Shown here piece by piece: positions 761 through 14,981 of a stretch of DNA of 36,730 nucleotides. The translations under genes were made by a program, and so were the position numbers. The DNA is from Lachnospiraceae bacterium (GTDB lineage Bacteria > Bacillota > Clostridia > Lachnospirales > Lachnospiraceae): assembly GCA_030524525.1 (NCBI GenBank), contig JAUNGI010000025.1, forward strand, positions 1 through 36,730. The letters are read 5' to 3'. Positions within the stretch are counted from its first letter, which is position 1. Each line of letters starts with the position of its first letter. The notes below the pieces were generated by a model. It had not been told where the DNA came from, did not search any database, and worked only from the letters and a program-made list of their open reading frames with translations.

Positions 761-3517
761 ATGAAGGAGTATCTGCTGATCATCGACGGCTCAAGTCTGC
801 TGTCAACACAATTTTACGGAAATCTTCCGAGGGAGGTGCTTCTGGCAAAAACGCCGGAGGAAAAGGAACGGTTTTTTTATAAGATCATGAAAACCTCCAC
901 GGGGGTCTATACGAACGGAATTTACGGCTTTCTGCGCACGCTGTTCAAGATCATGGAACAGCAGAGCCCGAAATATCTGGCGGTCGCGTGGGATCTGACA
1001 AGGGATACGTTCCGACGGGAGCTGTACGCCGATTATAAGGGCAATCGTTCCGAGACGATGGCTCCGCTTGCCGAGCAGTTCGCGGGAATGCAGGAGATTC
1101 TTCGGCGGATGGGCGTGCGTCAGTTTATGGACACGCGCTACGAGGCGGACGATTTCAGCGGAACGCTGGCGCGTCGGTTTGAGGCGGAGGTGCCGGTCTG
1201 CATTCTGACGAAGGATCACGATTATTTGCAGCTTGCGACGGAGCGGACCACGATCTGGATGCTGCATTCCGCACAGAAAAAGGCGGACGAGCTGTTTGCC
1301 AAATACGGCATGAAAAAAGAGGCGGCGGAATGCCCGGAAAAGGTGTTCCCGCTGAATCCGGAGCGCGTCCGGCAGGAGTACGGCGTGCCCCCGGAGTCCA
1401 TCGCCGCGCTCAAGGGTCTGATGGGCGACAGCTCCGACAACATCAAGGGCGTGCCGGGAGTCGGTCCGGCGACCGCCGCCGCGCTGATCGCGCATTACGG
1501 CTCGGTGGAGGAGCTGTACCGCGCCATTGACGGGGACGCCGCCTCCGGATATCGGAATCTGACGGCGCAGTGGAAGCAGGAGCTTGGCGTCAAGCGCAAT
1601 CCGATCGGCTGCCTGACAAAGGAGTCCGAAGAGGAGCTGACCGGAAGAAAGGCGGCGTTTTTGAGCGAACGGCTGGCGACGATCCGGACGGATCTGCCGG
1701 TTTCCGAGAGCCTTTCCGACCTGCTGCTGGCACCGGACTGGCAGGAGACCTCCCGCATTCTTCGGGAGCTGGAGATCACGAGCCTTCATTTGCCGCAGGG
1801 CTACGAGGACGGGGGAACCGAAGAGGTCAAATGGAAGCGCCCCGAACGCGAGGAGCGGGTTTCGGATCTTTCGCGGGCGGAGCAGGTGCTTTCGGGAAAC
1901 GGACTGCGGGGCGAATGGCTGGGCGTCGCGCGTGAGGAGACGGACGGGGCGACGGTCTGGTGGATCGCCGACGAGAAAGCGGCCTATGGCTTGGAGCTCG
2001 GCGGCTTTCTTTCGGAAGAGCTTCTTTCCGAACGGCTTTTGCAGCTTGCCGAACGGGGCTTTCGCTTTGCCGTCTGGGACTGGAAGGCGCATCTGCCGGT
2101 GCTGCCGAAGGACAGCCGCTTTGTTTTTGACCTGAGTCTTGCGGACTATCTGCTGCGCCCTTTGACCACGGAACACGGTCCGGAGGAGGCGGCCGCCGTC
2201 TGGTACGAGGCGTCCGGTGAGGGGCTTGCGGGAGCCGGGCTGGCGGCGTTTGCGCTGGCGGCGCGGGAACGTCTTTTGGCGGAGCTTTCCGAACGGGAGC
2301 TGCGCCCGCTTTACGAGACGATCGAGCTGCCGCTCGTGCCGGTTCTGTACGAGATGGAGAGCAACGGCATACGCGCCGACTACGAGGCGCTTGTCGCCTA
2401 CGGCGAGACGATGGTTTCCGCGATCGAGGAGGAACAGCGGAGGATCTATGAGCTGTCCGGCGAGCGGTTCAACATCAATTCGCCGAAGCAGCTCGGGGAG
2501 GTGCTGTTCGTGAAGATGAAGCTCCCCTACGGAAAGAAGACGAAAAGCGGTTATTCCACCGCGTCGGATATTTTGGAAAAATTGCAGGACGACTATGAGA
2601 TCGTGCGTCATATTCTGCATTATCGGCAGCTGACGAAGCTGAAATCGACCTATGTGGACGGAATGAAGGACTACATTCGGACGGACGGTCGGATCCACAG
2701 CAAATTCAATCAGATGGTTACGGCGACCGGACGGCTCAGCTCCACCGAGCCGAATTTGCAGAATATTCCGATCCGCTTTGCGCTCGGCAGAGAGCTTCGC
2801 AAGGTCTTTGTCCCGGAGGAGGGCTTTGTCTTTCTGGACGCGGACTATTCCCAGATCGAGCTTCGGCTGATGGCGCATATGTCGGGAGACGAGTCGCTGA
2901 TCGCGGCGTTCCGGAATCACGAGGACATTCACCGCTCGACGGCGGCGCAGGTCTTTGGGCTTCCCTACGAGCAGGTGACCGCCGAGCTGCGAAGCGCCGC
3001 GAAAGCCGTCAATTTCGGAATTATTTATGGGATCAGTTCGTTTTCGCTCGGACAGGATCTGAACATTTCCCGAAAGCAGGCGGAGGAGTATATTCAAAAT
3101 TATTTTGCGCGCTATCCGAAGGTAAAGCAGTATCTGGATAAGCTTGTAGCCGATGCGAAGGAGCGGGGGGAAGCAAGAACGCTTTACGGCCGCGTCCGTC
3201 CCATCCCGGAGCTTGCCTCCTCCAATTTCATGCAGCGCTCCTTCGGCGAGCGGGTCGCCATGAACATGCCGATCCAAGGGACGGCGGCGGATATTATGAA
3301 GCTTGCCATGCTGCGCGTTTCGCGCGCCCTGAAGGAACAGGGGCTTCGCTCCCGGCTGCTTTTGCAGGTACACGACGAGCTGCTGATCGAGACGGCGCAG
3401 GAGGAGATCGAGCAGGTGACGGCGCTTTTGCGCGAGGCGATGGTGCATGCGGCGGAGCTTTCCGTCGAACTGGAGATCGACATTCATCAGGGCGGCAGTT
3501 GGTATGAGGCGAAATAG
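761..3517 (+). CDS. polA: DNA polymerase I
   Basis: The 918-residue family A polymerase fills gaps and removes RNA primers during Okazaki-fragment maturation and repair. The N-terminal 5' nuclease domain (about 1-330) shows DGSS, YEADD and GDSSDNI metal-site motifs and a helix-hairpin-helix (GVPGVGPATA). The middle 3'-5' exonuclease-like domain lacks the DxE metal motif, and the position expected to carry the second catalytic Asp reads as DWKAH. It is therefore probably inactive for proofreading, as in several Bacillota Pol I enzymes. The polymerase domain has motif A DYSQIELR (about 693), motif B with K-x3-FGIIYG (about 747) and motif C QVHDE (about 871). About 20 extra residues sit between the first nuclease Asp motif and the GIYGF segment compared with E. 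coli. GTGAGGGA precedes the ATG. Confidence 0.97.
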   Translation: MKEYLLIIDGSSLLSTQFYGNLPREVLLAKTPEEKERFFYKIMKTSTGVYTNGIYGFLRTLFKIMEQQSPKYLAVAWDLTRDTFRRELYADYKGNRSETMAPLAEQFAGMQEILRRMGVRQFMDTRYEADDFSGTLARRFEAEVPVCILTKDHDYLQLATERTTIWMLHSAQKKADELFAKYGMKKEAAECPEKVFPLNPERVRQEYGVPPESIAALKGLMGDSSDNIKGVPGVGPATAAALIAHYGSVEELYRAIDGDAASGYRNLTAQWKQELGVKRNPIGCLTKESEEELTGRKAAFLSERLATIRTDLPVSESLSDLLLAPDWQETSRILRELEITSLHLPQGYEDGGTEEVKWKRPEREERVSDLSRAEQVLSGNGLRGEWLGVAREETDGATVWWIADEKAAYGLELGGFLSEELLSERLLQLAERGFRFAVWDWKAHLPVLPKDSRFVFDLSLADYLLRPLTTEHGPEEAAAVWYEASGEGLAGAGLAAFALAARERLLAELSERELRPLYETIELPLVPVLYEMESNGIRADYEALVAYGETMVSAIEEEQRRIYELSGERFNINSPKQLGEVLFVKMKLPYGKKTKSGYSTASDILEKLQDDYEIVRHILHYRQLTKLKSTYVDGMKDYIRTDGRIHSKFNQMVTATGRLSSTEPNLQNIPIRFALGRELRKVFVPEEGFVFLDADYSQIELRLMAHMSGDESLIAAFRNHEDIHRSTAAQVFGLPYEQVTAELRSAAKAVNFGIIYGISSFSLGQDLNISRKQAEEYIQNYFARYPKVKQYLDKLVADAKERGEARTLYGRVRPIPELASSNFMQRSFGERVAMNMPIQGTAADIMKLAMLRVSRALKEQGLRSRLLLQVHDELLIETAQEEIEQVTALLREAMVHAAELSVELEIDIHQGGSWYEAK

Positions 3518-3575
3518 GAGATCACTCGTCGCCTCTTCGCGACAAGTCGCTCGGAAATGAGAAATGAGGATTGGC

Positions 3576-4925
3576 ATGAAGATTGTAGGCATTACGGGCG
3601 GCGCAGGAAGCGGAAAAAGTCATGTCTGCCGTTTGATCGCCCAGCGGTTCCCCTATCCGGTCATCGACTCCGACGCCGTGACGCGGGAGCTGATGGCGGC
3701 GGGCTCGCCGATGCTGCAAAGCGTGGCGGAGGAATTCGGCTCGGAATTTTTGCTTGCCGACGGAAATCTGGATCGGGCAAAAATGGCGGCGCTTGTTTTC
3801 CGCGACGAAGCCGCGCTTGCCAGACTGAACGCGCTGACCCACCCCGCCACCATTGCGGAAATTGTCCGCAGGTTGAAACGTTACGAAAAAGAGGGAAGAA
3901 AAATTGCGGTGGTCGAATCGGCGCTTGCGGATAAGGCGGATTACCGGAGCTTCTGCGACGAGCTGTGGCTTGTTGCCGCCTCCGAGCAGACAAGGGCGGA
4001 GCGGCTTCGGCGGCAGCGGGGGTATTCGGCGGAGCGCATCCGTCAGGTGATGGAAAGCCAGTCCACGCAGGCACAGTTCGCCTTGGCGTGCCAAAGGACG
4101 ATCCGAAACGAAGCGGACACGGACGACGAGGAGCTGCTCCGGCAGCTTGACGTTTTGTTTTCTGCCTTGGAGGACGGTGCGGGAACGGACTTTACCATAC
4201 GGATCGCGGAGCGCCGCGTTGCCGTTCGCGCGCGGTACGCTTCCACGCGCAGCTTTTGCCGCGATTATCTGACCGAAGAGGAACCGGAGCTTACGGTTGC
4301 GGTTTCAGGTGCCGATCTTGCGTTCGAACGGGAAAGAGCGGCTCGCGAGGAGGCGGCGGAGGGGATCCCCGCCCGGTGCTTTTCGGATGCCTATCTGGAA
4401 ACGCTTGCCGTTTATCGCAAAATTGCGGAGGCGCTTCCGGCGTACGATACGCTTCTGTTTCACGGCTCCGTGGTCGCCGTTGACGGAGAGGCGTATCTGT
4501 TTACCGCCAAGAGCGGAACGGGGAAAAGCACGCATACGCGGCTTTGGCGGGAGGTCTTCGGAGACCGCGCGGTGATGATCAACGACGACAAGCCGTTGAT
4601 CCGGGTCGGCGAGGCGGGGGCAACGGTTTACGGAACGCCGTGGAACGGCAAGCATCGCCTCGGAAGCAACACGGCGGCTCCGCTGAAAGCGATCTGCATC
4701 TTGGAACGCGCGGACCAGAACCGTATCGTTCCGATTTCGTTTTCCGAGGCGCTGCCGATGCTTATGCAGCAAGCCTACCGTCCGTCCGAGCCGGAGCCGC
4801 TGAAAAAAACTCTGGCACTGGCAGAACGGCTGGGGGAAAGCGTGCGGCTGTACCGAATGGGCTGCAATATGGAACCGGCAGCCGCCCGGACGGCTTATGA
4901 AGGAATGAAGGAGGGAATAGATTGA
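3576..4925 (+). CDS. coaE: Dephospho-CoA kinase fused to an HprK-like kinase domain
   Basis: One uninterrupted 449-codon frame encodes two P-loop proteins. Residues 1 to about 200 are a complete CoaE, the last step of CoA synthesis: GGAGSGKS P-loop, DSDAVTR, THPA, a lid-type helix rich in Arg, and the final RNEAD segment. After a short linker, about residues 205-449 match the HPr kinase/PEP-carboxykinase-like proteins found beside PqqD and nucleotidyltransferase genes: HGSVV, a second P-loop AKSGTGKST near 311, and INDDKPL. CoaE is normally about 200 residues, so the second half is an added domain. No in-frame start with a ribosome site is visible at the junction, which argues for a real fusion. 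The start at 3576 is preferred because TGAGGA lies 5 nt upstream; 3564 is also possible. The substrate of the second kinase is unknown. Confidence 0.88.
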   Translation: MKIVGITGGAGSGKSHVCRLIAQRFPYPVIDSDAVTRELMAAGSPMLQSVAEEFGSEFLLADGNLDRAKMAALVFRDEAALARLNALTHPATIAEIVRRLKRYEKEGRKIAVVESALADKADYRSFCDELWLVAASEQTRAERLRRQRGYSAERIRQVMESQSTQAQFALACQRTIRNEADTDDEELLRQLDVLFSALEDGAGTDFTIRIAERRVAVRARYASTRSFCRDYLTEEEPELTVAVSGADLAFERERAAREEAAEGIPARCFSDAYLETLAVYRKIAEALPAYDTLLFHGSVVAVDGEAYLFTAKSGTGKSTHTRLWREVFGDRAVMINDDKPLIRVGEAGATVYGTPWNGKHRLGSNTAAPLKAICILERADQNRIVPISFSEALPMLMQQAYRPSEPEPLKKTLALAERLGESVRLYRMGCNMEPAAARTAYEGMKEGID

Positions 4926-5048
4926 AAAATCACACCGATGTGTTGATTTTTCAATCGGCAATTTGTGCCGGAGCATCACAAATTGCTTTGATCGCAGAAG
5001 AGAAATCGCCTTCGCGAATTTCTCTTCGCCCCGTCGCAAATGCTCCGG
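4921..5048. repeat. Highly structured intergenic element (three hairpins plus long-range pairing)
   Basis: This 128-bp stretch between the kinase fusion and the PqqD gene is almost entirely inverted repeats. Hairpin 1 (4921-4955) has a 15-bp stem with one bulge and starts within the coaE stop region. Hairpin 2 (4958-4986) has a perfect 10-bp stem GCAATTTGTG / CACAAATTGC. Hairpin 3 (4997-5027) has a 13-bp stem with one bulged A and a CTTC loop. The 9-nt loop of hairpin 2 (CCGGAGCAT, 4968-4976) is perfectly complementary to 5040-5048, which would form a pseudoknot or an alternative fold. The right edge abuts the ribosome site of the next gene. No T-tract follows, so it is not a simple terminator. 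It may be a leader RNA or a small palindromic repeat element. Confidence 0.6.
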
Positions 5049-5061
5049 AATGGAGATTACA

Positions 5062-5322
5062 GTGAAACTCAAGGAAGGATTTATTACGCATGAAAGCGCC
5101 GGAGAGCAGATTATGGTCGCCGCCGGCAGCGCAGGCTTTGCGGGGATCGTACGCAGCAATCAGACCGCCGCGTTTATCGTGGACTGCCTGAAGAACGATA
5201 CGACCCCGGAGCGGATCGTGGAGGCAATGGCGGAGACCTACGACGCGCCGAGAGAGGTGATCGCAAGGGACGTCGAAGCGATTCTTGGAAAGCTGAGGGG
5301 CATCGGCGCTTTGGAAGAGTAG
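5062..5322 (+). CDS. PqqD-family small protein (RRE-like peptide-binding fold)
   Basis: The 86-residue protein starts at GTG 5062, chosen because GGAG at 5052-5055 is 6 nt upstream and the product then begins MKLKEGFITH as in the family. An upstream in-frame ATG at 5050 has only a weak site. The body shows the usual PqqD pattern: an N-terminal strand pair, then a helical part with LKNDTTPERIVEAM and a final amphipathic helix. PqqD-like domains act as RiPP recognition elements that bind precursor peptides. Stand-alone copies also occur beside HprK-like kinases and nucleotidyltransferases, as here. It lies between the kinase fusion and an exporter, suggesting a substrate-presenting adaptor. No precursor peptide is recognisable nearby, so the role is inferred. 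Confidence 0.75.
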   Translation: MKLKEGFITHESAGEQIMVAAGSAGFAGIVRSNQTAAFIVDCLKNDTTPERIVEAMAETYDAPREVIARDVEAILGKLRGIGALEE

Positions 5323-5390
5323 CCTTTGCGATCGGGACGGCGGTTTTGCGCTGCCGGAGACGGGCGGCGCATGCGAAGGAAAGGGAAACG

Positions 5391-7136
5391 ATGAAGAAGG
5401 ACGGTACCTCCTCCCTGCATTGGCTTTGGAGGATCTCCGGCAAAAAAAGAAGGAAGATCTTGTGGCTCATGCTGCTGCAAATGCTGCTCGGCGTTTTCAG
5501 CGTGGGCTTTGTTTGGCTGCTCCGCGGACTGATCGATGCGGCTGCGGGCGGAAGGGAAACGCGGTTTTGGGGATATGCGGCGGGGCTTTTGGGGCTTACG
5601 CTTCTCCAGCTTGCGCTGCGGGCGCTGCTCCGGCATCTTTTGGAGGATACCAAAGCGACGCTTGAGAACCGCCTGAAGGAGCGGCTGTTTTCGGTGCTGC
5701 TGTCAAAGGACTACGCGGCGGTCACGGCGGTGCATTCCGAGGAATGGATGAATCGCCTGACCTCCGATACCGCGGTGACCGCGGAGGGGCTAAGCACCAT
5801 TCTGCCGGAGGCGGCGGGACTGCTTGTGAAGCTGGCGGGCGCGCTGCTTCTGCTCGTGTATCTGGTGCCGGGGCTGGTTCTGGTTCTGTTTCCGGCGGGC
5901 TTGCTTTTCGGGCTGCTGACCTACGGCTTTCGGAAGCTTTTGAAGCGGCTGCATAAGCGCATTCAGGAGGCGGACGGACGGCTTCGCGTTTTCCTTTCGG
6001 AACGTCTGGCAAGCCTTCTTGTGGTACGCGCGTTTGCGATCGAGGAGCAGACGGCGGCGGAGGCGGAGGAAAAAGCGGCGGAGCATCGGGCGGCGCGGAT
6101 GAAGCGAAACGCGGTCTCGAATCTGTGCAACACCGGCTTCGGCGTGCTGATGTCGGGCATCTATCTGCTGGGCGCCGTATACTGCGGGCACGGTATTCTA
6201 ACGGACACCATGACCTATGGGACGTTTACCGCCGTGCTGCAGTTGATCGGACAGATCCGCGCGCCGTTTGCAAACCTGACCGGATATCTGCCGAAATATT
6301 ACGCCATGCTTGCGAGCGCCGAGCGCCTGATGGAGGCGGAGGGCTATACGGACGGCGGGATCGAAGCGCGAAGGGAGAAGGAGAGCCTGCGGGAATTTTA
6401 CCGGAACGAGTTTCGCGCCATGGGGCTGCGCGGCGCTGCGTTTACCTATCTGCCGCCGGCGCGGGAGGCTTGCGGCGAACCGCGGAGCGAAGAAAAGCGT
6501 CCCGTGGTGCTTCAGAATATTGACTTGGAGATCGAACGCGGGGAATATGTCGCGTTTACCGGCGCGTCCGGCTGCGGAAAAAGCACGCTGCTCAAGCTGT
6601 TCCTTTGCTTATATCCGTTGGACTGCGGGGAACGGTATTTGAAGCTTGCGGACGGCGGGGAGATCCCGCTGGACGGAAGCTTCGCCCGTCTGTTCGCCTA
6701 TGTTCCGCAGGGGAATCATTTGATGAGCGGAAGCATTCGGGACGTTGTTACCTTTGCCGACGCTTCCCGGGGCGAGGAGGCGGTATGGAACGCGCTTCGC
6801 ATCGCGTGTGTGGAGGAGGTCGTCAGGGAGCTGCCGGACGGCTTGGACACGCTGCTCGGCGAGCGCGGTACGGGACTTTCCGAGGGGCAGATGCAGCGGA
6901 TCGCCATTGCAAGGGCCGTTTACTCGGACAATCCGATCCTGATGCTCGACGAATCCACGAGCGCGCTGGACGAGCAGACCGAGGCGCGGCTGCTTGCCAA
7001 TCTGCGTTCCATGACGGACAAAACGGTGCTGCTTGTCACGCACCGCCCCGCAACCTTAGCGATCTGCGACCGGCAGGTGACGATGCGGGAGAATTTTGCG
7101 GCGGAAGCGCGCGCAGAGGGGAGGCGTGGAGAATGA
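5391..7136 (+). CDS. ABC transporter, fused membrane and ATPase domains
   Basis: The 581-residue half-transporter starts at ATG 5391, with AAAGGG just upstream; the frame is open further 5' but without a better start. Residues about 20-310 form a six-helix type IV exporter membrane domain. The ATPase domain follows with Walker A GASGCGKST, Q-loop YVPQG, signature LSEGQ (a variant of LSGGQ), Walker B ILMLDE and H-loop THRP. It probably works as a homodimer exporting a peptide, lipid or modified metabolite. There is no C39 peptidase domain, so it would not process a double-glycine leader. Its stop overlaps the start of the nucleotidyltransferase gene (ATGA), and the block with the PqqD protein and kinase suggests that it exports their product. 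Confidence 0.9.
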   Translation: MKKDGTSSLHWLWRISGKKRRKILWLMLLQMLLGVFSVGFVWLLRGLIDAAAGGRETRFWGYAAGLLGLTLLQLALRALLRHLLEDTKATLENRLKERLFSVLLSKDYAAVTAVHSEEWMNRLTSDTAVTAEGLSTILPEAAGLLVKLAGALLLLVYLVPGLVLVLFPAGLLFGLLTYGFRKLLKRLHKRIQEADGRLRVFLSERLASLLVVRAFAIEEQTAAEAEEKAAEHRAARMKRNAVSNLCNTGFGVLMSGIYLLGAVYCGHGILTDTMTYGTFTAVLQLIGQIRAPFANLTGYLPKYYAMLASAERLMEAEGYTDGGIEARREKESLREFYRNEFRAMGLRGAAFTYLPPAREACGEPRSEEKRPVVLQNIDLEIERGEYVAFTGASGCGKSTLLKLFLCLYPLDCGERYLKLADGGEIPLDGSFARLFAYVPQGNHLMSGSIRDVVTFADASRGEEAVWNALRIACVEEVVRELPDGLDTLLGERGTGLSEGQMQRIAIARAVYSDNPILMLDESTSALDEQTEARLLANLRSMTDKTVLLVTHRPATLAICDRQVTMRENFAAEARAEGRRGE

Positions 7137-8338
7137 CGACGGAAGAACGGAAAAGGACGGGCTACGAGCTGATCTACCTGACGGCGTGCGCCCTGCACGG
7201 CGCGGAACCGGACGAGGCCGTGACGGCGGGGATGGAGCTTTCAAGAGGATTTCGCCTTGCGCGCGCCCATGCGCTAGGGGCCGTTTACTGTATGGCGCTG
7301 GAGAACACCGCGGCTTATCAGCACGCGGCGCCGGAGCTGCAAAAGAAGATGCAGGAGGCGAAAAATAAGGCGATCCGCAAAAACCTGCTGCTGGACGCCG
7401 AGCGGGAACAGCTTTTTGCATGGATGGACGCCGAGGCGATCTGGCATATGCCGTTAAAGGGTGTTCTGTTAAAAGAGCTTTATCCGAAAGCCGGGATGCG
7501 GCAGATGTCCGACAACGACATCCTGTTTGACGCCGCCGCCCAATCCCGCGTCCGCGATCATATGAAGGCGCGGGGATATACGGCGGTCAGCTATGGAAAA
7601 GGAAATCACGATGTTTATAAGAAGCCGCCCGTTTATAATTTTGAGATGCATACGGCGCTGTTTGGAGCCGCCCACGATCCGCTCTGGCAGGAGTATTACG
7701 CAGACATAAAGGAACGGCTGCTCCGCGATTCGGATACTTCGTTCGGCTATCACTTCCGGGAGGAAGATTTTTATTTGTATTTTATGGTGCACGCCTGCAA
7801 GCATTATTCGACCGGCGGGACGGGGCTTCGCACGCTTACCGACGCCTATGTCTATATCCGCAGCAAGGAGGATCCGGACCGGAGTTATATCGCCGCAGAA
7901 GCGGAAAAGCTTGGGATCTCGGAATTTGAGGAGGCCGTCCGGAGTCTGGCGGAAAAGCTGTTTCGCGCGCCGGTCCTTCTTTCGGAAGCGGAGCTTACGA
8001 AGGAGGAGCAGGAGATGCTTTCCTACTTTCTGTATTCCGGCACCTACGGAACGACCGAAAATCACGTGAAAAACAAACTGGAGCAATTACAGCGGGACGG
8101 GGCTCCGGTCACGAAAAAGACGAAACGGAAATATCTTCTGCGGCGAATTTTCCCCGATATGGAGTGGTACAAAAGCTATGCGCCCTTCTGTTATCGTCAC
8201 AGATGGGCGATCCCGTTTTTCTGGGTTTGGCGTTTGGTGCGCGGCGCGCTGGTAAAGCGGAAGCGGATCGCGGGGGAGCTGGAAGCGGTAAAGAAGACCG
8301 GGGCGGAGCCTCAGCCGGAAAATCTTGCCCGCAAATAA
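7133..8338 (+). CDS. Nucleotidyltransferase family protein (PF14907-like)
   Basis: The 401-residue protein starts at the ATG overlapping the ABC transporter stop codon by 4 nt. Residues about 107-133 show the family core: LKGVLLKELYP, then G-x-R-QMSDNDILF, in which the S-D-x-D pair is the expected metal and nucleotide site of a Pol-beta-type nucleotidyltransferase. The central part has HTALFG and MVHACKHY-type segments, and the C terminus is basic with an aromatic cluster (WAIPFFWVW). This family often sits in operons with PqqD-like proteins, HprK-like kinases and ABC exporters, and accompanies some lasso-peptide clusters as a tailoring enzyme. The acceptor and nucleotide here are unknown. 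The frame extends upstream inside the transporter gene, but that part is a shadow. Confidence 0.82.
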   Translation: MTTEERKRTGYELIYLTACALHGAEPDEAVTAGMELSRGFRLARAHALGAVYCMALENTAAYQHAAPELQKKMQEAKNKAIRKNLLLDAEREQLFAWMDAEAIWHMPLKGVLLKELYPKAGMRQMSDNDILFDAAAQSRVRDHMKARGYTAVSYGKGNHDVYKKPPVYNFEMHTALFGAAHDPLWQEYYADIKERLLRDSDTSFGYHFREEDFYLYFMVHACKHYSTGGTGLRTLTDAYVYIRSKEDPDRSYIAAEAEKLGISEFEEAVRSLAEKLFRAPVLLSEAELTKEEQEMLSYFLYSGTYGTTENHVKNKLEQLQRDGAPVTKKTKRKYLLRRIFPDMEWYKSYAPFCYRHRWAIPFFWVWRLVRGALVKRKRIAGELEAVKKTGAEPQPENLARK

Positions 8339-8371: not shown

Positions 8372-8998
8372 ATGGAAAATATCAAGTGTCTGTTTTTTGA
8401 CGTCGGCTCAACATTGGTAGACGAATGCAAGGCATATGAAAGCAGAATGCGGAGCATTGCAGAGGCGGCAAACGTATCCTATGAAACGGTTTACGAAACC
8501 GCGTTGAGGTTCTATAAGCAGAATAAAAAGGGCGATTTGGAAACGATAAAAAAGCTGAAGGTGGAAATGCCCAAATGGCGCAGCGAATGCGAGGTTCTGT
8601 ATCCGGATGCGGAGGAATGTTTGAAACGGCTGAGCAGGAAGTATAAAATCGGAGTGATTGCCAATCAGTCGCTTGGAACGGAGAAACGGCTGGAGCGGTT
8701 TGGAATCTTGCGCTACATAGATCCGGTGATCGCTTCGGCGGAGGAGGGCGTCGCGAAGCCGGACGAAAGAATTTTTGAGATCGCCTTAAAACGGGCGAAG
8801 TGTAGTCCGGAGCAGGCGGTTATGATCGGGGACAGAATTGACAACGATATCGTTCCCGCAAAAAAGCTGGGGATGAGAACCGTGTGGGTAAAGCAGGGAT
8901 TCGGGAAATATTGGAATATTACCGGCGAAGGGGAACGGGCGGATTATGAGGTAAACCATTTATCGGAGCTTTTGCCAATTTTTATTCCTCCATTGTGA
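8372..8998 (+). CDS. HAD-superfamily hydrolase
   Basis: This 208-residue HAD phosphatase-like protein starts at ATG 8372, with AAGGAG and GGGG upstream. Motif I reads FFDVGSTL: the nucleophile Asp is present, but the Asp two residues later, which normally acts as acid/base, is replaced by Gly. Motif II is ANQS, the conserved Lys lies in KPDERIF and motif III is GDRIDND. A helical cap lies between motifs I and II. Some HAD subfamilies naturally have the DVGST form, so activity cannot be excluded; the substrate is unknown. Codons look more A/T-rich than those of the neighbours, hinting at a different history. An inverted repeat (CATTTTT / AAAAATG, 8342-8358) precedes it. The promoter for the next operon overlaps its stop codon. 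Confidence 0.85.
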   Translation: MENIKCLFFDVGSTLVDECKAYESRMRSIAEAANVSYETVYETALRFYKQNKKGDLETIKKLKVEMPKWRSECEVLYPDAEECLKRLSRKYKIGVIANQSLGTEKRLERFGILRYIDPVIASAEEGVAKPDERIFEIALKRAKCSPEQAVMIGDRIDNDIVPAKKLGMRTVWVKQGFGKYWNITGEGERADYEVNHLSELLPIFIPPL

Positions 8999-11595: not shown

Positions 11596-12735
11596 ATGAA
11601 TACGAGATACGAAGAAGATTATTATTCCATATACGACGAAGAAGACGCCGAGCAGCTCCCGGTTTCCGGTGCCGGAAAGCGGAGAGGGAAACGGAAGAAG
11701 AAAAGACCGATGAAACGGCTGTTTTTTCTGCTTCTGGGCTGTCTTGTCTGTCTGTGTACGGTGGTTTTTGTTTCCGGTTACTGGAAAACGCTGCTCTCCG
11801 AGTTTGCGGGGGATTTTATCTCGGACAATATGAACAGCTTTACCGAGGAGGAACTGAAAAGCACGTTTGAAAAGCCGGCGGTCATTCCCGACGGCTGGCA
11901 GTACGACGAGAACGTCGTCAACGTCCTGCTTGTGGGGATCGAGGGGATCGGAAGCAACGGCGCATATGCCGGACGTTCCGATTCCATGATCCTTGTTTCC
12001 CTTCGAAAGGATACGGGGCAGATTTCGCTTGTTTCGCTGCTGCGGGACACCTACGTTACGCTGCCGGGTCACGGCGGGGTCAAGCTGAACGCCGCTTACG
12101 CCTACGGCGGACTCGACCTGCTGATCGAGACGATCCAGAATACGTGGAAAATCTATATCGACGGCGTTGTCCGCGTGAATTTCGACGAGTTTGAATCGGT
12201 CATCGACACGCTGGGCGGCGTGACGATCTCTCTGACGCAGGAGGAAGCGGACTATCTGAATCGGACGAATTACATTTCCGATAAGAGCAATCGCGTGATG
12301 GTCGCCGGAAACAACCGGATGAACGGCAATCAGGCGCTTGGCTATTGCCGGGTGCGCAAGGTGGGAACCATGGACGGCGACAAGATGGTCTATAACGACT
12401 ACGGCCGGACGACTCGCCAGAGAAAGCTGCTTTCCGCCATATTTGAAAGCTATCGGAATTACAGCAAAACAAAATTACTATCGGTTACAAAGGAGATTTT
12501 AGGGATTCTGACCTGTAGTCTGAACGAGCCGCAGATCACGGAGTGCATCAGCGCGTATCTGGACCATCCGACCGATCGGCTTTTGCAGCATCAGATCCCG
12601 GCGCAGGGGTATTTTACCGGAGAAACAAAAGATTGTGGGGATTGTCTGGTACCGGACTATGAGGCGAATGTTGCGATCCTGCACCATTACCTGTACGGAA
12701 CGGCGCTGCCGGACGGGATAACATTATCCGAGTAA
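11596..12735 (+). CDS. LytR-CpsA-Psr (LCP) family protein
   Basis: The 379-residue membrane enzyme starts 2 nt after the UPF0210 stop. It has an acidic then strongly basic cytosolic tail (about 1-37, KRRGKRKKKR), one transmembrane helix (about 38-58), and an extracellular LCP domain. In that domain RSDSMILVSL, SLLRDTYV and KLNAAYAYGG carry the Asp/Arg residues that bind the lipid-linked pyrophosphate. LCP proteins transfer glycopolymers such as teichoic acids or capsule from undecaprenyl pyrophosphate to peptidoglycan. The ribosome-binding site is poor, so translation may be coupled to the gene upstream. Confidence 0.92.
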   Translation: MNTRYEEDYYSIYDEEDAEQLPVSGAGKRRGKRKKKRPMKRLFFLLLGCLVCLCTVVFVSGYWKTLLSEFAGDFISDNMNSFTEEELKSTFEKPAVIPDGWQYDENVVNVLLVGIEGIGSNGAYAGRSDSMILVSLRKDTGQISLVSLLRDTYVTLPGHGGVKLNAAYAYGGLDLLIETIQNTWKIYIDGVVRVNFDEFESVIDTLGGVTISLTQEEADYLNRTNYISDKSNRVMVAGNNRMNGNQALGYCRVRKVGTMDGDKMVYNDYGRTTRQRKLLSAIFESYRNYSKTKLLSVTKEILGILTCSLNEPQITECISAYLDHPTDRLLQHQIPAQGYFTGETKDCGDCLVPDYEANVAILHHYLYGTALPDGITLSE

Positions 12736-12756
12736 AGATTAGGAGTTGGGGTTATT

Positions 12757-13560
12757 ATGGAAATACAATTATGGCGAGAGATTCTAGAGCCATATTCCTT
12801 GGCGGTCGATGAGCTGCTGATAAAATTCAATCACGTGCAGCGGGCGTTTCAGAAGGCAAACGACTATTGCCCGATCGAGCTGGTGCAGGGGCGCGTAAAA
12901 ACCATCGCCAGCATTCTGGAAAAGGCGAACCGCAAGCACATTCCGCTGGATACGCTGGAGGACCAGATGGGAGATATTGCGGGCATCCGGCTGATCTGCC
13001 CGTTTGTGGAGGACTGCTATGCGGTGGCGGAGCTGATCCGGAGACGCACCGACATGGAGATCGTCTCGGAGGACGACTATATCGCCCGTCCGAAGGAGAG
13101 CGGCTACCGCAGCTTTCACATTCAGATCCGCTATACGGTGCAGACGCTCCGGGAGCCCAAGACCATCTATGCGGAAATTCAGATCCGTACGCTGGGAATG
13201 AACTGCTGGTCCACGATCGAGCATTCCCTACAGTACAAATACCGGGGGAATGTGCCGGAGGAGCTGAGCCTGCGTCTGCAGCATACGGCGGACGGCATGA
13301 TCGCCACCGATCAGGAGCTTTCGTCCATCCGCGACGAGATCCAAGCCGCCAAGGTGATGCAGGCGGAGGAGGATCGGATCGTAGGGGACATTCTTGTGAC
13401 GATCCAGAATCTCTATAAGCTGGCGAGCCGCCGGGAGGCCGTTCGGATGCAGGAAGAATTTTTCCGCATCTATCAGGAACAGAATCTCGATAAGCTGAAA
13501 CACTTTGCAACCGAGCTGGACATTATCGCCGAGGGGTACCGGGCGCAAAGTCTTGTGTAG
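12757..13560 (+). CDS. Small alarmone synthetase, (p)ppGpp synthetase (RelQ-like)
   Basis: The 267-residue protein contains only the RelA/SpoT synthetase domain and no HD hydrolase, TGS or ACT domains. Key motifs are GDIAGIRLICPF, PKESGYRSFH (the GTP-binding G-loop), AEIQIRTLGMNCW and EHSLQYKY, followed by a helical C-terminal part that in this family supports tetramer formation. It makes ppGpp or related alarmones from ATP and GDP/GTP. AGGAG is followed by ATG 12757. Expression with the LCP gene links alarmone control to the envelope, but that is inference. Confidence 0.93.
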   Translation: MEIQLWREILEPYSLAVDELLIKFNHVQRAFQKANDYCPIELVQGRVKTIASILEKANRKHIPLDTLEDQMGDIAGIRLICPFVEDCYAVAELIRRRTDMEIVSEDDYIARPKESGYRSFHIQIRYTVQTLREPKTIYAEIQIRTLGMNCWSTIEHSLQYKYRGNVPEELSLRLQHTADGMIATDQELSSIRDEIQAAKVMQAEEDRIVGDILVTIQNLYKLASRREAVRMQEEFFRIYQEQNLDKLKHFATELDIIAEGYRAQSLV

Positions 13561-13577
13561 GAAACGAAAGGAACCAA

Positions 13578-14981
13578 ATGGGAAATCTGCCGGAAAAATT
13601 TGAAAAACGGATGGAACGGCTGCTTGACGGGGAATTTCCGGATTTCCTGTCAAGCTTTTCGGTAAAGGCGCGCTCCGGTCTGCGGGTCAATACGCTGAAG
13701 ATCTCCGCGGAGGAATTTGCCGGTCTGACGGACTGGGAGCTGCGGCGGATCCCGTGGATCGAAAACGGCTTCTTTTATCCGGAGACGGCGACGCCCTCGA
13801 AGCATCCGTGGTACTATGCCGGTCTGTATTATCTGCAGGAGCCCAGCGCCATGACGCCGGCGAATCTGCTTCCGGTGGAGCCGGGGATGCGCGTTCTGGA
13901 TCTTTGCGCCGCGCCCGGCGGAAAAAGCACGGAGCTGGCGGCGAAGCTGCGGGGCGAGGGCGTGCTTGTGGCGAACGATATCAGCAGCACCCGCGCGAAG
14001 GCGCTTCTGAAAAATCTGGAGCTGTTCGGCGTGCGCAACGCCCTTGTGACAAGCGAGAATCCGGCGGCGCTCGCCGGGCGTTTTCCGGGCTATTTTGACC
14101 GCATTCTGGTGGACGCCCCCTGCTCCGGCGAGGGCATGTTCCGGAAGCAGCCGGCGATCATGAAGAACTGGGAGCAGTACGGAACCGAATACTATGCAAA
14201 GCTGCAAAGGGAGATTTTGCCCCATGCCGTTTCGATGCTGCGCCCCGGCGGTTATCTGATGTATTCGACCTGCACCTTCTCTCCGGAGGAGGACGAGGAG
14301 ACCGTGGACTTGCTGCTGCGGAGCTTCCCGGAGATGCGGCTTGCGGACGCGGTTCCGGCGGAACGGCGGACGGCGTATCGGGAAATGGGCTTTGCGACCG
14401 GACGGCCGGATTGGATGCGGACGCCGCGGGAGGAGATCGCCAAGACCGTGCGGCTCTTTCCGCACCGTTTGGAGGGCGAGGGGCATTTTCTGGCGCTGCT
14501 GCAAAAGAGCGAAGACGCCGGGCAGGGCGCGGGCTTCGTACCCGAAACCGGCTTTGTGCCGGAGAAGCGGCTTCCCGCCGAGCTGAGGGCGTTTTTTGCG
14601 GACTGCGGGGCGCCGGTGGATCTTTCGCGGATCGCCGCAAAGGACGGAAAGTATTATCTGCTTCCGGACGGAATTCCGGAGCTTCGCGGACTGCGGCTCC
14701 TGCGCAGCGGTCTGCTTCTGGGTGAGCAGCGAAAGGATCGCTTCGAGCCGAGTCAGGCTCTGGCGTGCGCTTTGAAAAAGCAGGAATATGCCAACGCCTT
14801 TTCTCTGCCGCCGGAGGACGAACGGGTCGTCCGCTATTTGAAATGCGAGACGATCGAGCTTCCGGAAAGCGTGCCGGACGGCCATGTGCTTTTGTGCGCG
14901 GGCGCTTATCCGCTCGGCTTTGTCAAGAAAAAGGGGAGCGGCGTGAAAAACAGGTATCTGCCGGGCTGGCGCCTGATGTAA
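13578..14981 (+). CDS. RsmF/NOL1-NOP2-Sun family rRNA m5C methyltransferase
   Basis: The 467-residue SAM-dependent enzyme shows motif I LDLCAAPGGKST, motif IV DAPCSGEGMF and motif VI MYSTCTFSPEE. Both catalytic cysteines (DAPC and STCT) are present, as required for cytosine C5 methylation. The N-terminal RVNTLK segment helps bind RNA. After residue 300 come the ferredoxin-like and PUA-like C-terminal domains of the RsmF type, ending KKKGSGVKNRYLPGWR. By family it modifies 16S rRNA cytosines; the exact site cannot be read from sequence. It is followed after 10 nt by the RsuA fusion, forming an RNA-modification group. Confidence 0.92.
   Translation: MGNLPEKFEKRMERLLDGEFPDFLSSFSVKARSGLRVNTLKISAEEFAGLTDWELRRIPWIENGFFYPETATPSKHPWYYAGLYYLQEPSAMTPANLLPVEPGMRVLDLCAAPGGKSTELAAKLRGEGVLVANDISSTRAKALLKNLELFGVRNALVTSENPAALAGRFPGYFDRILVDAPCSGEGMFRKQPAIMKNWEQYGTEYYAKLQREILPHAVSMLRPGGYLMYSTCTFSPEEDEETVDLLLRSFPEMRLADAVPAERRTAYREMGFATGRPDWMRTPREEIAKTVRLFPHRLEGEGHFLALLQKSEDAGQGAGFVPETGFVPEKRLPAELRAFFADCGAPVDLSRIAAKDGKYYLLPDGIPELRGLRLLRSGLLLGEQRKDRFEPSQALACALKKQEYANAFSLPPEDERVVRYLKCETIELPESVPDGHVLLCAGAYPLGFVKKKGSGVKNRYLPGWRLM

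Follow-up and report, generated by a model that had tools for sequence, protein, structure and literature searches.

A gene block inserted behind coaE in a Lachnospiraceae genome, probably half of a split LPP-type peptide modification pathway

What do a kinase, a PqqD-like protein, an ABC exporter and a nucleotidyltransferase act on when they stand side by side? Four consecutive genes at positions 3576 to 8338 raise this question in a 36,730-nucleotide stretch of Lachnospiraceae DNA (contig JAUNGI010000025.1 of assembly GCA_030524525.1), which as a whole is called the window here. Our analysis indicates that the block, with its kinase, recognition element, exporter and nucleotidyltransferase, is very probably one half of a pathway of the Linear Polyphosphorylated Peptide (LPP) type, split across the genome, for a ribosomally synthesized and post-translationally modified peptide (RiPP).

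The LPP family of Bacilli was described in Nature Communications in May 2026 (PMC13381572), with lppAKBSDN of Paenibacillus alginolyticus. According to the accessible part of that article, its core consists of the SpI/SipW-like LppS, the RiPP recognition element (RRE) LppB, the HprK-like kinase LppK, the nucleoside triphosphate (NTP) transferase LppN and the MsbA-like LppD, and its precursor has a YxxPx leader. The same part reports that LppK puts several phosphates on one core Ser, and that the leader is cleaved by LppS when LppB is present.

In the window, the four genes recorded by the first-pass annotation are all present on the + strand. The first is a single frame of 453 residues (3564/3576-4925). 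Its N-terminal part is a CoaE (dephospho-CoA kinase) domain (3576..4181, the frame opening at 3564; PF01121, E=4e-37 over residues 7-187; TIGR00152 above cut-off), and its C-terminal part is an HprK-like kinase domain of the LppK type (4182..4925). The frame is followed by a PqqD-like discrete RRE of the LppB type (5050..5322, with an ATG at 5050; 90 residues; PF05402, E=3e-14), an MsbA-like ABC exporter of the LppD type with permease and ATPase fused (5391..7136; PF00664, E=8e-28, and PF00005, E=7e-22), and a nucleotidyltransferase of the NTP_transf_5 family and LppN type (7133..8338; 401 residues; PF14907, E=2e-42), the start of which overlaps the exporter stop as ATGA. The Pfam matches of the exporter included no C39 peptidase. 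In the nucleotidyltransferase, K109-G110, R123, D127xD129 and E171xH173 were invariant among 12 aligned proteins. A sequence search of the PDB with the window PqqD gave no match better than E=0.05, the lasso RRE TfuB1 standing at 0.19. The genome contains a single PqqD, a single NTP_transf_5 protein and a single kinase of the LppK type, all inside the window.

A fusion of CoaE with HprK had been proposed for the first gene; the single frame and the CoaE half are firm, and the HprK label is weak by profile. The matches of the kinase domain to TIGR04249 (ScmC, E=1e-6), HprK_rel_A (0.006) and hpr-ser (0.064) were all far below cut-off, with NCBIfam scores of 28 bits against a curated cut-off of 125 and 15.6 against 200. 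An HprK-related kinase is what the locus has in common with the HPr-rel-A and SynChlorMet cassettes of NCBIfam, and ScmC is the best NCBIfam match of the window kinase. Searching the PDB with the kinase profile gave no match at E<=0.01. The P-loop, His (His94 in the window) and NDDKP, which we take to be the catalytic motifs of the kinase domain, are kept in the window and conserved in alignments of 14 and 25 sequences. Since these motifs are kept and the neighborhood resembles that of the published LppK, the label is supported. The domain is 61-62% identical to the stand-alone kinases of two loci, L043 and L044, which also contain PqqD, peptidase and nucleotidyltransferase genes.

Neither a simple regular expression nor a hidden Markov model run over open reading frames (ORFs) of up to 170 residues matched a precursor within the window, and the first-pass annotation had described both leader peptidase and precursor as absent. 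This description does not hold for the genome. Its only SipW-like peptidase, of the LppS type, lies on contig 22 (14031-14441, E=9e-60); the Ser, His and Asp that are invariant in 19 aligned relatives are kept in it, and its profile gave weak PDB matches to SEC11 and signal peptidase I. A candidate precursor of 32 residues lies at position 13239 of contig 22 (E=4e-11), some 0.7 kb upstream of that gene and behind a ribosome-binding site judged strong by eye; the gene order there is precursor, secreted stalk protein, peptidase. A second candidate of 41 residues was found at position 45462 of contig 32 (E=2e-15), and both candidates keep YxxPxM. An orphan locus without a precursor was ruled out by these whole-genome searches. 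In the accessible part of the LPP article we found a corresponding set of five families, of which the kinase, the discrete RRE, the exporter and the NTP transferase are clustered in the window and the fifth, a SpI/SipW-like peptidase with Ser-His-Asp, is on contig 22. The arrangement described there differs in that the parts of the window genome lie on three contigs and its kinase is fused to CoaE.

We scanned named genomes with the kinase alignment, confirmed at least 593 relatives, and kept the best 80, which by their titles are mostly from rumen and gut Clostridia; some of their contigs end within the cassette. Within 6 kb of the kinase, PqqD was present in 62 of these 80 loci, the SipW-like peptidase in 54, the exporter in 35, the nucleotidyltransferase in 34, and all four in 20. 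None of the 80 showed the window arrangement of PqqD, exporter and nucleotidyltransferase without an adjoining peptidase. Five relatives (L064, L065, L076, L081 and L084) carry the whole run uninterrupted, in the order precursor, surface protein, kinase, PqqD, peptidase, exporter, nucleotidyltransferase, and for this reason the cassette of the window genome looks split into two halves. In the order to which genome G142 belongs, the kinase was found at E<=1e-40 in 116 of 394 genomes. From this list we took 60 further loci (the top 63 minus G142, which was already covered, G654 and G575), none with a kinase at least 95% identical to those of L023-L122. They contained the peptidase in 44 cases, PqqD in 43, the exporter in 15, the nucleotidyltransferase in 8 and the precursor in 8. 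From the counts in both sets, kinase, PqqD and peptidase form the tightest core. In L025 (495-1812), from the same genus, a membrane protein that looks TraX-like by eye comes after the kinase and before the peptidase.

Among the 22 genomes of the window's genus, the kinase was found in 12 and PqqD in exactly the same 12; the peptidase was present in 10 of these, the precursor in 10 and the nucleotidyltransferase in 9, and in the other 10 genomes none of the five components had a match at the cut-offs used. Fisher tests of the kinase against PqqD (p=2e-6), peptidase (1e-4), precursor (1e-4) and nucleotidyltransferase (5e-4) over these 22 genomes are uncorrected for relatedness. Across all 61 genomes, the peptidase (13) and the precursors (13) were confined to the 15 kinase-bearing genomes, whereas the genomes with PqqD (26) and those with the nucleotidyltransferase (20, 15 of them above cut-off) include some that lack the kinase. 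The parts can be widely scattered: in G001, kinase and peptidase are on contig 31, PqqD on contig 25, the nucleotidyltransferase on contig 10 and the precursor on contig 12. The repeated association of kinase, PqqD, peptidase, exporter and nucleotidyltransferase in relatives makes a grouping of the four window genes by chance unlikely. The first-pass proposal that the genes modify and export a peptide as one system, and that their enzymes resemble the paeninodin lasso set, is supported; rare co-occurrence or unrelated partners, which would have spoken against it, were not seen in the relatives or in the genus.

We then asked how the block came to stand next to coaE. The genes polA, coaE and a metallo-hydrolase gene were directly adjacent in all eight same-genus relatives examined (L204-L211), with no kinase, PqqD or nucleotidyltransferase match and no tblastn match to the HAD gene (E<=1e-6) between coaE and the metallo-hydrolase gene. 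The window has about 4.9 kb there, from the kinase domain to the HAD gene, and G034, from another genus, has 0.8 kb. In the nearest relative examined, G006, the flanking proteins are 78-92% identical to those of the window and CoaE 63%. Its site is uninterrupted, its CoaE ends where the window CoaE runs on into the kinase, and none of the five components (kinase, PqqD, peptidase, precursor, nucleotidyltransferase) was matched in its genome. The block is thus inserted behind coaE. The fused copy is the sole full-length CoaE of the genome; one other match, with an E-value near the cut-off (6e-6), spans positions 2-72 of the 180 in the profile, and most same-genus genomes have weak matches of this kind. 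CoaE was detected in 57 of the 61 genomes and in 14 of the 15 with the kinase, and both stand in one frame in the window genome only. The CoaE of G034 sits in a frame of 454 residues, yet this genome has no kinase match.

The CoaE half would make coenzyme A, and its fusion to the kinase may be an accident of insertion that was tolerated or proved useful. An assembly or sequencing artefact, in which a stop codon was lost between two genes, is an unlikely source of the fusion. The fusion is known from one assembly only, and an internal TTG near 4170 could start a separate kinase; on reading the sequence, however, no ribosome-binding site precedes this TTG, the 453 codons run without frameshift or stop, and the junction coincides with the CoaE C-terminus of the nearest relative. 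Such an artefact would leave the assignment of the pathway unchanged. If the fusion is true, a peptide-pathway kinase joined to the sole full-length CoaE would be an unusual link of peptide modification to core metabolism. A kinase of the same family lies in a frame of 621 residues in L120 (9710-11575), possibly another fusion.

The co-occurring short conserved ORF that the first-pass annotation had suggested looking for was found, both in the 10 kinase-bearing genomes of the genus given above and in 35 of the 80 kinase loci, where short ORFs of mostly 30-60 residues lie within 3 kb of the kinase, mostly upstream. The commonest residues of their leader are K-[EK]-x-Y-E-x-P-E-M-E-V-I-x-F-E-x-E-D-V-I-T-x-S-G, followed by a variable tail that is often acidic or contains Pro. 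From 199 loci we collected 108 candidates. The first aromatic position, compared in 107 of them, is Tyr in 82, Phe in 24, Met in 1 and Trp in none, so that Tyr or Phe accounts for 106 of 107; 91 candidates retain Asp19 and 94 retain Ser24. Six candidates searched against NCBIfam (E up to 1) and Pfam (E up to 0.1) had no match. In a class-wide sample the family was present in 23 of 392 genomes (E<=1e-6), some of which carry between two and four copies, in many cases on separate contigs, and precursors are often located away from the cassette. Directly upstream of a candidate precursor or the kinase, very large proteins of 1200-1900 residues, secreted or surface-located by eye, were seen in L127 (4863-9221), L058 (2769-8396) and L034 (5757-9371).

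A radical-SAM protein was found in 11 of 178 loci. In the loci L055, L058, L086, L092, L109, L111, L113, L115, L119, L157 and L220, a radical-SAM maturase-like gene stands beside precursors with core cysteines; among the 38 class-wide precursor loci such a gene is near the precursor in one (L157). Four of the radical-SAM proteins were compared with NCBIfam, where their best matches were peptide maturases at scores under the cut-off; of two compared with Pfam, each passed Radical_SAM and neither passed SPASM. Each of the 13 candidate precursors lying no more than 3 kb from a radical-SAM gene has core Cys, compared with 3 of 80 others (p=2e-13); counted by locus, the figures are 11 of 11 compared with 3 of 71, related loci not being collapsed. 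Since core Cys tracks the radical-SAM neighbor, the short ORFs are supported as substrates. These cores suggest thioether chemistry on top of phosphorylation, and such loci are candidate phospho-thioether hybrid RiPPs.

Set against the published family as far as the accessible part of PMC13381572 describes it, the clostridial precursors share a YxxPx-like leader with Tyr or Phe, a hydrophobic position, Phe-Glu and a conserved Ser downstream. They often have a short variable region after the Ser, and the radical-SAM enzyme with Cys cores and the companion surface protein of similar tail each occur in some relatives; these are differences from LPP as described there. Several observations weigh against assignment to LPP. 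The Bacilli consensus given there is YxxPxVLxHQxIxFETxxS, whereas the clostridial leader has no HQxI, spaces Y and F by 10 rather than 13, and has the Pro of YxxP in just 60 of some 107 candidates, so that recognition and cleavage as published can be transferred to it only with reservations. Deletion of lppN is reported there to have no detectable effect. The kinase was nearby in only 3 (L160, L169 and L193) of the 38 class-wide precursor loci, and the 60 further loci yielded few precursors, exporters and nucleotidyltransferases. Among the 12 kinase-bearing genomes of the genus, no peptidase was detected in two, namely G019, where the kinase match itself is weak and partial (E=3e-12), and G021, which is 79% complete; a precursor was not detected in two and a nucleotidyltransferase in three. 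The window block contains neither a macrolactam synthetase (PF00733) nor a B2 peptidase (PF13471), and the rest of the genome was not searched for them. The gene content agrees with LPP and the precursor agrees in part; because of the latter, the sequences lead us to call the system a putative clostridial variant of LPP.

Because the window and contig 22 together hold the LPP set, PqqD-guided phosphorylation, nucleotidyl modification, cleavage and export are proposed. By homology to the published LPP system, PqqD would bind the Y-x-x-P-x-[MIVL] leader of the precursor of 32 or 41 residues from contig 22 or 32, the conserved core Ser would be phosphorylated by the kinase domain, and the SipW-like peptidase of contig 22 would remove the leader while PqqD holds it; the exporter would carry the product out. 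For the chemistry of the nucleotidyltransferase, the cleavage site and the biological role, we infer more freely: after phosphorylation the nucleotidyltransferase might attach one more group, possibly to the phosphate itself, and the leader may be cut behind T22 or behind F-E-x.

Some loci encode, between precursor and kinase, a protein with a signal peptide or lipobox and a Pro/Thr/Glu-rich linker. Secreted or lipoprotein stalk proteins with a C-terminal tail like that of the neighboring precursor were seen in L076 (9443-9949), L075 (3198-3479), L065 (229-798), L220 (2381-3010) and L127 (9440-9967). In 139 loci, the tail motif [ILVEQ][LIV][PD] plus one to seven residues ends 13 of 15 stalk ORFs downstream of a precursor and 9 of 19 other stalk ORFs, 7 of these 9 being just upstream of a kinase or PqqD gene in other cassettes; the motif was defined after the tails had been seen, and its background is 16% of shuffled tails and 48 of 947 called ORFs of at least 120 residues. 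In the 60 further loci it was present in only 3 of 15 secreted low-complexity ORFs (L220, L223 and L259, the last probably by chance).

To measure the likeness of the tails, precursor-companion pairs were chosen automatically and scored within the locus against permuted partners. L051 and L023 look like one contig; L051 was excluded from the surface-protein and tail sets, and L023 is outside the 80-locus set. The results showed that 20 pairs averaged 18.4 compared with 13.2 for permuted partners (p=5e-5), a signal that rests on 8 pairs scoring at least 22, the other 12 scoring 6-16. By subset, the discovery set (14 pairs) gave p=5e-5, and the class-wide loci and the further loci (3 pairs each) p=0.33 each. 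A partly hand-chosen set of 15 pairs (without L042, L192 and L126, and with L064b and L074 added) gave the same p=5e-5. Examples of paired tails are DELPWVP/DELPWIP, ELPFVPAE/ELPFVPAF and AIELPIIP/VIELPIIT. The window genome has one matching pair, NELPPDVF/NELPVDWL on contig 22, and the neighbor of the contig-32 precursor does not match. A tentative and rather unlikely reading is that clostridial LPP-type loci encode two-part surface systems, in which a phosphorylated peptide, in some cases cross-linked by a radical-SAM enzyme, goes with a membrane-anchored disordered stalk that copies its C-terminus; we give it lower weight because the tail motif is rarer in the 60 further loci. If it is true, peptide and stalk would share one partner, and they could be a secreted signal and its surface-tethered twin, a peptide and a self-protection decoy, or the donor and acceptor of one modification.

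On another reading, the short ORFs would be bystanders and the enzymes would act on a protein or non-peptide substrate, for example the companion surface proteins or a polymer of the cell wall. The shared tail motif beside some cassettes, the large surface proteins adjoining some precursors, and the location of most class-wide precursors away from the kinase gene are in its favor. The short ORFs nevertheless keep a leader like those that bind RREs, are present in 10 of the 12 genus genomes with the kinase and in 0 of the 10 without it, and change in core cysteine content with radical-SAM presence, so we regard this explanation as quite improbable.

The last question is whether the block belongs to a lasso cluster. 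The first-pass annotation had pointed to the paeninodin type, and kinship in the enzyme set stands, with HprK-like kinase, NTP transferase, PqqD-like RRE and ABC exporter in common; the closest known system is the linear LPP and not the lasso. The paeninodin-type leader motif is WxxP, with no Trp at that position among our 107 candidates, and the leader peptidase is of another type. A degraded or orphan paeninodin-type cluster that kept its tailoring enzymes and lost macrocyclase, cysteine leader peptidase and precursor would explain the accessory set, and ruminal lasso clusters do carry HPr kinase and nucleotidyltransferase genes (PMC7533575) or a nucleotidyltransferase (PMC13289728), as far as the accessible parts of these articles describe them, but it is very improbable given a SipW-type peptidase with matching precursors in the same genome, intact active-site residues in kinase and transferase, and no asparagine-synthetase-like family recognized by eye among the 45 largest families of the 80 neighborhoods.

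The LPP-type reading would bring Clostridia of the rumen and gut, among which the kinase is frequent, into a RiPP family known to us from a single 2026 study in Bacilli. Because the parts can be scattered over a genome, mining based on gene clusters would miss such pathways. Handles on the role of the peptides come from the split organization, the precursor family, the association of Cys cores with radical-SAM genes and, more tentatively, the likeness of the companion tails. The accessible main text of PMC13381572 does not mention radical, clostridia, rumen, Ruminococcus, CoaE or lipoprotein, and the clostridial branch, Cys-core variant, companion protein and CoaE fusion were unreported in the published titles and abstract openings covered, most subscription journals lying outside that coverage.

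Six genes here run in one direction on the + strand, in the order polA, coaE-kinase, pqqD, exporter, nucleotidyltransferase and HAD gene. polA (761-3517, +), named from reading its translation, precedes the fused frame, and a HAD-family hydrolase (8372..8998, +; PF13419, E=6e-20) is the final gene of the inserted block. Between kinase and pqqD lies an interspersed repeat of 137 bp (4919..5055, +) with copies on contig 22 of the same genome (L127), at 12408-12527 (89% over 120 nt) and 12554-12627 (93% over 74 nt), one copy being partial. On the same contig, three similar tandem copies of an apparently secreted protein of about 200 residues were seen at 11764-13883, with the repeat at the start of the second.

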